Positions 24,537 through 63,880 of a stretch of 64,000 bases of DNA are shown here, in pieces. The notes beneath the pieces were generated by a model that saw nothing but the letters and a program-made list of their open reading frames with translations, was not told the origin of the DNA and searched no databases. How positions within the stretch are numbered: position 1 is the first letter of the stretch; every line of letters starts with the position of its first letter. The stretch comes from Oscillospiraceae bacterium (GTDB lineage: Bacteria > Bacillota > Clostridia > Oscillospirales > CAG-272), in NCBI GenBank assembly GCA_015064445.1, contig SVSE01000007.1, forward strand, positions 31,828-95,827, given 5' to 3'. The position numbers and the translations under genes are program-made.

Positions 24537-25508
24537 ATGGCATTTTTCAAAAATAAGCTTTTTAAGCTTGTAATCGCAATTGTGTTACTTTTTGCAATGG
24601 TTTTGCCACTTGCATCGTGTGACCTTTTGTTCGATCTTCTTAGAATGGCGGAGGATCCTGAGGAGGAGTCCTACGAAATTCCAGAGGGCACAGCAGAGTT
24701 CCACTTTATCGACATCGGACAGGGTGACTCAATACTTATTATGGTAGATGGCAAGGCGATTCTTATTGATACAGGCGTTAGCGCTGAAAAGGAAAATCTT
24801 GATGCGTACCTTGATTCTTGTGGAGTAACCGAGCTTGAATATTTTATCGCAACTCACCCAGACTCTGACCACATAGGCGCAGCTGCTCATGTTGTTGAAA
24901 ACTATAAAATCAATAACATTATCCTTTCCCCAAAGGAGCATACAACCAAGACCTATGAGAAGTTTATAACAGCAATTGAAACAAAGATTGATAACGGAGA
25001 GATTCTCGAAGAGAATGTTTCCTTGGCAGACGGAGATTTGATAGGCTCAAGCGTTTATGTTGGAGAGCTTGAAATGAAAATCCTCGGTCCTGTTGATCCA
25101 GATGAATTCAGCAAGAGCGATAATAATAACCCAAGCGTTGTAATTATGGCAAGATGGGGCAATAACAAGGTTCTTTTGACTGGTGACGCAGAGAAGGAGG
25201 CTGAGCTTCAGCTTGTTGAAGAATACGGAAATCAGCTCAAATGCGATGTTCTTAAGGTTGGACACCATGGCTCACACTCATCAACACACCCAGCCGACCC
25301 TGATGACGGAATTGTGTATGGCTTCTTGCACTATGTTCAGCCAACAATGGCAGTTATCTCCTGTGGCGAGGGGAATGATTATGGTCATCCACATAAGGAA
25401 ACAATGGATGAGCTTGCAGAATACGAGGTAGAGGTGCTTCGTACCGACCTGCTCGGCTCAATCGTGCTCGTTTCTGACGGAACAAATATCACTCAAAAGG
25501 CAAATTAA
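24537..25508 (+). CDS. MBL-fold hydrolase lipoprotein, ComEC C-terminal-domain-like
   Basis: Lipobox LPLASCD; FHFIDIGQGDSILIMVDGKAILIDTG, THPDSDHIGA, VLLTGDAEKEAE, LKVGHHGSHSS. Confidence 0.92.
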   Translation: MAFFKNKLFKLVIAIVLLFAMVLPLASCDLLFDLLRMAEDPEEESYEIPEGTAEFHFIDIGQGDSILIMVDGKAILIDTGVSAEKENLDAYLDSCGVTELEYFIATHPDSDHIGAAAHVVENYKINNIILSPKEHTTKTYEKFITAIETKIDNGEILEENVSLADGDLIGSSVYVGELEMKILGPVDPDEFSKSDNNNPSVVIMARWGNNKVLLTGDAEKEAELQLVEEYGNQLKCDVLKVGHHGSHSSTHPADPDDGIVYGFLHYVQPTMAVISCGEGNDYGHPHKETMDELAEYEVEVLRTDLLGSIVLVSDGTNITQKAN

Positions 25509-25891
25509 AAAAGAAGACACAGGCAAGGGTGAATATTCTTAAGGACAGTTTTTTGAAATTCATTAAAATACGTTACCTGTCAATAGGAAAAGGACGAAGA
25601 ATTATGAAAATTCCTCGTCCTTTTTTCTTAACAAACACAGCTTCTGCGTTCACAGAAGCTGTTTTGTCGATATACCTCACTTTATTCGGCTCGATATATT
25701 TGCCCTATGGCGCAAATTCGATATAATCTCCCTTTCGGTCGATTTCGATATGATATTCGCCTTATTTCTCGTGCGAAGCACATATCGAGTCCGTGAGGAC
25801 ATATCGAGCACGAAGTGCATATCGTTCGCCGTAGGCGAATATCGATGCGTTGTGTCATTAAGGGAACAACGCTAAGTCCTGTGTCTTTTTT
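25507..25891. repeat. Array of mini-hairpins with TCGATAT/ATATCGA linkers, bounded by an inverted repeat
   Basis: Outer AAAAAAGAAGACACAGG (25507-25523) / CCTGTGTCTTTTTT (25878-25891); TCGATAT near 25667, 25691, 25718, 25745; ATATCG(A) at 25782, 25801, 25819, 25839; hairpins GTGCGAAGCAC, GTCCGTGAGGAC, GCACGAAGTGC, TTCGCCGTAGGCGAA. Confidence 0.88.
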
Positions 25892-25892
25892 A

Positions 25893-26648
25893 TTAGGTTT
25901 TTGCGAGTCCAAGCATCCACGAGGTGGGAAGAGCCTTTGATAGCACCCTGTAAAATTTATAAAAGCCCTTTGGAGTGTAAACAGCTCTACCTTTCTTTGA
26001 TGCCTTGATGGCTCCGAGTGCGGTTTTTGTTGGATTGCAACGAGGAAGCTTGTCAAACGCCTTGGAGCTTCCGTTATCAAGACCGGCAACAGCCAAAAAT
26101 TCCGTTTCCATAGGTCCTGGGCAAAGCGCAGTAACATTGATTTTCCTCTTTTTAAGCTCATAGCGAAGCCCTCTTGAAAAGCTCATAACATAAGCCTTCG
26201 TTGAGGAATATACAGTCAAGTTTGCATTTGGAACAAATGAGGCAATAGAGCAGGAGTTTATTATTTTCGCCCCTGCCGACATATAAGGAAGTGCAATTGT
26301 CGTAATCTCTGTAAGAGAGCGCACATTTAGCTCAATCATATTGCCTTGCGCTATGTAATCTGCACCTTCAAGCGCACCATATACACCTGCACCAGCATTG
26401 TTGATAAGAAATCTTATATCGGGCGACTCGTTTTTCAAAAGCTCGCAAAGACAAGTCATGCTTTCTCTTGTGGTAATATCTAAAGGAATGCACCTTGTTG
26501 GAATTTTACCATAAAGAGCGCTAATTTCCTTTAGCCTTTCCTCTCGCCTTGCGATAATCCATATCTCGTCAAGCGCTTCATTTTGTAAGCCCTTGAAGAA
26601 TTCTACTCCAAGTCCACTTGAAGCGCCCGTAATAATGGCAATTTTCAT
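25893..26648 (-). CDS. SDR family NAD(P)-dependent oxidoreductase
   Basis: IITGASSGLGVEF; LINNAGAGVYGAL; YSSTKAYVMSFSRGLRYEL. Confidence 0.92.
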   Translation of the reverse strand: MKIAIITGASSGLGVEFFKGLQNEALDEIWIIARREERLKEISALYGKIPTRCIPLDITTRESMTCLCELLKNESPDIRFLINNAGAGVYGALEGADYIAQGNMIELNVRSLTEITTIALPYMSAGAKIINSCSIASFVPNANLTVYSSTKAYVMSFSRGLRYELKKRKINVTALCPGPMETEFLAVAGLDNGSSKAFDKLPRCNPTKTALGAIKASKKGRAVYTPKGFYKFYRVLSKALPTSWMLGLAKT

Positions 26649-63491: not shown

Positions 63492-63880
63492 GGGTCTGTA
63501 AGGGCTTCGACGGGGATTTTGAGGTACGATAAGCGTGGCGGGCTGGCTAATCCCGTATAATGGCTAAATTAAAAATTAAACGACAACAGAACTGTTGCTA
63601 TGGCTGCCTAACTAATTGCCCCTTGGGCGATTAGTGGCAGTGCTGTGGCTTTTTAGCCACCCGTCTCCCCAAGGAGCACCACGACCTTGGCTGAGGCGTC
63701 AAACAGTGGTAAATGTGCATCGGTTGTTGCGCTTGAGCCGATCACACAAAAAAGCGCTACCGAATCGAATAGCCTGTTAATCGGCGCTTCGATAAGGGAA
63801 TTTTAAAAGATTAACTGTCCACGAAGAAGGTTGTGCTAACGGATTTTCGGACGCGGGTTCAACTCCCGCCAGATCCACCA
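63492..63880 (+). ncRNA. ssrA: Transfer-messenger RNA (tmRNA)
   Basis: GGGTCTGTAAGGGCTTCGACGGGGATT 5' end, tag ORF ending NDNRTVAMAA-stop, TTCAACTCCCGCCAGATCCACCA 3' end; 5' GGGTCTG pairs with CAGATCC. Confidence 0.96.

Follow-up and report, generated by a model that had tools for sequence, protein, structure and literature searches.

Proteins of the IVP family (PF05635) are four-helix bundles, encoded by a small gene that is best known from intruders in rRNA genes. Heterocystous cyanobacteria carry STRR, which are heptanucleotide tandem repeats. In the 23S rRNA IVS of Coxiella burnetii, heptamers (GACAGAT) stand just ahead of the S23 ORF (PMC4990558), and short DNA hairpins of the forms C(GNA)G and C(GNNA)G are extraordinarily stable (PMC4686876). 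Here we analyse an array of mini-hairpins and seven-letter linkers from an Oscillospiraceae bacterium that has traits in common with each of these systems. No description of arrays of this kind was found in the open-licence literature, and the array is apparently an undescribed element. With a probability of roughly 60%, we read it as a lone copy, without a gene, of a palindromic mobile element that is linked to IVP and acts at the DNA level.

The array and its host terminator

The array lies in the window, the whole 64,000-nucleotide stretch of DNA that was analysed, and occupies the intergenic stretch 25507-25891 between the stop codons of convergent MBL-fold and SDR genes. Its parts and the flanking genes are given below.

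24537-25508, + strand: metallo-beta-lactamase-fold (MBL-fold) gene
25506-25523, + strand: left arm of the host bidirectional terminator (TAAAAAAGAAGACACAGG), 89% complementary to 25878-25895
25534-25665, + strand: left module (GGACAGTTTTTTGAAAT..CCTCGTCCTTTTTT), a dispersed repeat in its own right that occurs also without the array
25588-25624, + strand: terminator-like hairpin AAAAGGACGAAGAATT/AATTCCTCGTCCTTTT, from an inverted repeat search
25637-25662, + strand: 10-bp hairpin adjoining the array
25667-25673, - strand: linker 1, TCGATAT
25691-25697, - strand: linker 2, TCGATAT
25718-25724, - strand: linker 3, TCGATAT
25745-25751, - strand: linker 4, TCGATAT
25752-25781, + strand: central segment, with the hairpin GTGC-GAA-GCAC (25771-25781) at its end
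25782-25788, + strand: linker 5, ATATCGA
25789-25800, + strand: mini-hairpin GTCC-GTGA-GGAC
25801-25807, + strand: linker 6, ATATCGA
25808-25818, + strand: mini-hairpin GCAC-GAA-GTGC
25819-25825, + strand: linker 7, ATATCGT, a single mismatch to ATATCGA
25825-25839, + strand: mini-hairpin TTCGCC-GTA-GGCGAA, overlapping a linker by one base at each end
25839-25845, + strand: linker 8, ATATCGA
25847-25872, + strand: end hairpin GCGTTGT..ACAACGC, whose counterpart in relatives is GCGTAGTGTCCTTAAGGACACTACGC
25878-25895, + strand: right arm of the host terminator (CCTGTGTCTTTTTTATTA); empty site in genome G297
25893-26648, - strand: SDR gene

An earlier note on this DNA had placed the array in the gap 25507-25891; it is there, but the element is slightly larger, being closed by the arms at 25506-25523 and 25878-25895. 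All four TCGATAT linkers of the left half begin where the note had put them (25667, 25691, 25718, 25745), as do the four right-half linkers that it read as ATATCG(A) (25782, 25801, 25819, 25839), except that the third reads ATATCGT. The four right-half mini-hairpins and the 10-bp hairpin at 25637-25662 are likewise present, and the proposed design of a regularly spaced nested palindrome is borne out by inverted linker halves with hairpins between them. Linker starts are spaced by 18 to 37 bp. In this copy, the hairpins of the left half are imperfect and no IVP (PF05635) ORF is present. In an Rfam search of the array, the best matches fell far below gathering thresholds. Close to the end of the window there is also a tmRNA gene (63492-63880).

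ATATCGA is expected 8.6 times in 64 kb; its seven exact copies within 180 bp, with polarity ----+++, therefore exclude chance, and this cluster (25667-25845) is the sole such array in the window. Compared with dinucleotide shuffles, the array folds with a z-score of -7.7 as DNA and of -5.7 and -6.8 as RNA, one per strand. The folds of minimum energy have TCGATAT:ATATCGA rungs, formed between the linkers of the two halves, with the mini-hairpins protruding.

The arms TAAAAAAGAAGACACAGG and CCTGTGTCTTTTTTATTA enclose the window element, and in the relative G297 nothing but an uninterrupted terminator, AAAAAAGTCCAACTCATGTTGGACTTTTTT, stands between the same pair of genes. At a second junction, ACAATAAAAAATAGCAAGCCG and its mirror form the arms in locus L277 of genome G183; the uninterrupted sequence there in G320 is AAAAAAGCCTTGACTACGGTCAAGGCTTTTTT. 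A-run arms that are perfectly complementary over 11 nucleotides or more were found at 15 of 67 arrays versus 49 of 4422 mismatched flank pairs, so the elements tend to sit in the loops of host terminators; clean terminator arms are present in a minority of arrays only. Because the arms differ per locus, the change at these junctions was probably gain rather than loss; the G297 and G320 pairs taken by themselves fit either direction, since their empty sites belong to diverged species of one genus. As for MITEs, the outer arms vary from locus to locus and do not amount to shared terminal inverted repeats, and the empty sites in G297 and G320 are too diverged for a target-site duplication to be read.

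Mini-hairpin loops and linker words

Across 87 distinct arrays, 360 of 412 inter-linker segments fold into flush stems of 3 bp or more, giving 145 distinct stems. Covariation was scored in 29 distinct 13-nt units, after six of 35 listed segments that were clearly non-array had been dropped by eye, covariation itself playing no part in the choice. Single equal-length units were used for pair counting; global alignment across differing linkers was too gappy. Stem cells in these units are paired at 96.6% versus 59.6% when shuffled, double changes number 55 versus 16, and the covariation score is 0.991, versus 0.248 shuffled and at most 0.132 slid. The compensatory stem changes that had been predicted among homologs are thus seen.

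The loops follow a strict polarity. Read along the linker strand, 46 of 79 distinct triloops are GNA and none is TNC, and 47 of 77 distinct tetraloops are GNNA and none is TNNC, whereas control hairpins outside arrays are symmetric (75 GNA vs 70 TNC). The GNNA loops divide into 23 GNRA and 24 GNYA, with no GNRA excess; the RNA tetraloop rule is therefore not followed. The linkers flip between the halves, so no single transcript has favoured loops in both. On the strength of the GNA/GNNA loops and this flip in orientation, DNA is favoured as the working form of the array; the RNA nature that the earlier note had implied is not what these loops point to.

An RNA element, whether a compound bidirectional terminator or a 3' processing or stability structure, possibly cut by RNase III, would fit several observations: the array lies between two stop codons and inside terminator arms, its left module has terminator-like hairpins, and the folding of either RNA strand is far better than that of shuffles. 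An IVS with the same protein family is excised by RNase III (PMC4990558). We nevertheless consider an RNA element rather unlikely. The loops obey the DNA rule, any transcript would have the unfavoured TNC loops in one half, the empty-site relative G297 terminates with a plain hairpin, and in several IVP copies a promoter-like TTGACA..TATAAT (by eye) stands between array and gene.

The linker word is specific to the locus. The earlier note had put up for testing that ATATCGA is invariant; instead, each locus has its own seven-letter linker, which changes at all its positions together, leaving the earlier interpretation, taken as a whole, partly supported. At other loci the word is ATATCAC, ATTTCAC, ACTTCAC or AATTCAT, without mixing within a locus and with its reverse complement in the other half. 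The left module and end hairpin of the window accompany GTGAAAT/ATTTCAC linkers in L251, L260 and L265, GTGAAGT/ACTTCAC in L253 and, by eye, GTTATGA/TCATAAC in L248; L261 has GTGATAT/ATATCAC. A de novo scan for any heptamer with at least five spaced copies, on either strand, in 260 bp found 176 clusters in 1.46 Mb of fetched loci versus one in shuffled DNA, a rate that is biased, as ATATCGA had guided part of the fetching and some of the loci overlap; other linker types were unselected. Nearly all arrays have the polarity ----++++. As the left copies are all the reverse complement of the right copies, a change of linker is a concerted change at about eight places, and either the halves pair or one factor reads all copies. 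A word that varies by element yet is uniform inside it is unusual among repeats and calls for a copying or pairing mechanism.

Dispersal and linkage to IVP genes

Similar arrays occur elsewhere in Clostridia, as the earlier note had anticipated. Within the family, triple-linker arrays are present in 24 of 71 genera and in 46 of 295 genomes, and a reversed-pattern control gave zero matches in every genome listed in this family scan. About six further arrays lie in the window's own 1.77-Mb genome, and genome G218 has many copies of one array type at unrelated loci, up to 92% alike. Among the matches listed in an open scan of named genomes, genuine arrays come mostly from uncultured Clostridia and Oscillospiraceae of herbivore guts, so that the taxonomic breadth is at least this wide; loci in other phyla that were coding or simple repeats were left out of the array counts. 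The left module (25534-25665) has matches in 61 of the 295 family genomes, and copies of it without the array were seen in L255, L258, L259 and L264. Many arrays in draft genomes stand at contig ends, which could hint at an assembly artefact. The likelihood of chance or artefact is practically nil: arrays occur independently in dozens of genomes, and the reversed-pattern control (zero) and the shuffled control (1 vs 176 clusters) refute it.

IVP genes are linked to the arrays. An IVP match lies within about 35 bp of 12 distinct arrays, and 11 of these genes start at the same array end and read away from it. Taking the genes as the starting point, a hairpin array was found just upstream of 14 of 35 IVP genes versus 70 of 3000 random windows; the set comprised 32 genes picked by profile score and three from the host genome, and 330 bp upstream were covered with a strict hairpin-aware detector, used in place of an exact-heptamer test of the flanks that missed many loci. 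Linkers at these arrays vary (GCTAAAT, GTGATA, ATGATG, GCTTCA and others). PF05635 is present in 193 of the 295 family genomes, and in 42 of 46 array genomes versus 151 of 249 others (Fisher p=3e-5, uncorrected for phylogeny or completeness). The window's genome has three IVP genes, none of them in the 64-kb window; most arrays, the window's included, are without an adjacent IVP gene, and only three identical hairpin units are common to IVP-linked and solo arrays. By sequence the family matches PDB 2rld, an uncharacterised protein, and this analysis found no function for PF05635; the arrays and their flanking heptamers give these proteins a candidate nucleic-acid partner.

Fuller copies form cassettes. 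At 12 of 16 IVP loci examined, IVP is preceded by a tRNA gene of the same strand, at a distance of about 230-400 bp. L325 holds two tandem IVP cassettes with different heptamers and the repeat CGGTCACCAAACACAAA in both. In L317, a full cassette is followed by an array without IVP, and an 82-bp stretch is repeated at 96%; by analogy, this second copy would be the best model for the window array, as a gene-less derivative. In both L317 (2000-4000) and L325, the tRNA is followed by a terminator, the array, IVP and a cargo gene, then by a repeat of the tRNA-end sequence and the next array. Five genomes have array and IVP together at the 3' end of rlmD; the genes downstream differ wherever they were read, and in G111 there are two in tandem. 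The rlmD/rumA 3'-end cassettes are those of L062, L063, L064, L061 and L263, and in L063 and L064 an extra copy of the rlmD/rumA C-terminal coding end lies beyond the cassette. Duplication of the terminator or tRNA end was considered as a general rule of IVP cassettes and rejected, being clear only in L317, L325 and L062, with L216 by eye. One locus of the window's own genome (C12:148531; L331/L216) has IVP with a degenerate ATGTAAT/ATTACAT hairpin array, and the same terminator hairpin, CAAGCAACTC..GAGTTGCTTG, flanks that cassette on both sides.

Some arrays occupy the same place in different genera, the rlmD 3' end for example, and many lie at gene ends, as would suit a structural or insulating element owned by the host, inherited by descent and immobile. 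We hold this to be quite improbable in view of the near-identical arrays at many unrelated loci of one genome, the empty sites at orthologous junctions, the patchy distribution (46/295 genomes) and the different cargo of tandem cassettes.

Beyond Clostridia, we read 13 IVP loci in plasmid and phage records from Cyanobacteria, Bacteroidota, Spirochaetota, Chloroflexota and Bacillota. The tandem-heptamer pattern at these loci was judged by lag autocorrelation and by reading: autocorrelation of the flanks is 0.405 and 0.381 at lags 7 and 14 versus 0.26-0.29 at other lags. In many cases the flanks are inverted tandems, for example (GTGATTA)n..(TAATCAC)n, and two of the phage-record loci have hairpin arrays. 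IVP genes with inverted tandem heptamer flanks were noted in L337-L347 (plasmids), L082-L093, L214, L215, L301-L304 and L309. In L344, the IVP gene stands between cas2 and cas1 of Anabaena cylindrica, and in L346 it lies inside a restriction-modification operon. As a lead from these sequences, the hairpin array may be an elaborated form of a general IVP-heptamer design.

Proposed mechanism and known systems

As a solo copy of a mobile, IVP-linked element, the array would be read as DNA. Its halves would fold into hairpins with very stable GNA/GNNA loops, and left and right linkers would pair as rungs once a cruciform is extruded. Acting in trans, IVP proteins would recognise the structure through its heptamers and hairpins and assist a putative recombinase, or else the replication machinery, in the excision, copying or insertion of the element. 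Insertion would prefer hairpin loops and terminators, where damage is slight, and the window copy, being without an IVP gene, would move, if at all, in trans. The movement machinery and the role of IVP are what we infer here; to our knowledge, IVP has no known catalytic activity. In the window's own genome, which is 97% complete, Y1 transposase (PF01797) had no match, control genomes being matched, and no reverse transcriptase was found.

More tentatively, and with less than even confidence, IVP proteins could be the trans-acting factors of a multi-phylum class of mobile elements whose signal is an element-specific inverted seven-letter word. Within such a class, the recognition signal would take the form of plain tandem heptamers in many lineages and of mini-hairpin-spaced heptamers in Clostridia, and cassettes would enter terminators, tRNA and rlmD ends without Y1 or reverse transcriptase, by an undescribed route.

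Movement by a Y1 (RAYT) transposase, as in REP/BIME-type repeat families, would account for inverted pairs of intergenic hairpins, each hairpin having a short tag at its side, for GNA-type ssDNA hairpins and for many copies per genome. The absence of PF01797 contradicts it in this genome, and we judge it highly unlikely. A different protein family, IVP, adjoins the arrays, and the tag is neither GTAG nor CGTC: at their foot the hairpins directly follow ATATCGA, ATTTCAC, ACTTCAC and the like, a word that varies from locus to locus. The array thus resembles REP, BIME and REPIN in its inverted pairs of intergenic hairpin units dispersing within a genome, with a tag per hairpin and hairpins of the ssDNA type. 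It differs from them in the missing Y1 transposase, the IVP neighbour, the strongly varying stems and a locus-specific heptamer tag at about eight positions.

In loop sequence and in the C-G closing pair, the array is like the ultra-stable DNA mini-hairpins d(C-GNA-G) and d(C-GNNA-G), which are oligonucleotides in vitro (PMC4686876), whereas the array motif recurs in genomes. With natural GNA/GNNA DNA mini-hairpin arrays, a structure studied as oligonucleotides would have a use in genomes. STRR have seven-letter units as the array does, and several Nostoc-type plasmids have an IVP gene between inverted heptamer tandems that may belong to the published STRR families. Unlike the contiguous tandems of STRR, the heptamers of the array are spaced by mini-hairpins, 18 to 37 bp apart.

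With the 23S rRNA IVS of Coxiella burnetii that bears an S23/IVP ORF, the array has in common a small element set in a host hairpin and closed by complementary arms, a PF05635 protein in its fuller copies, and heptamers, which in the IVS precede the ORF (PMC4990558). The array differs in its location, which is not within rRNA but between protein-coding or tRNA genes, the window's own lying between the MBL-fold and SDR genes, and in heptamers spaced by mini-hairpins. The window copy is without the S23/IVP ORF, which is present in its fuller relatives, and, like the IVS, it sits inside a host hairpin with complementary arms (25506-25523/25878-25895), the empty terminator being that of G297.
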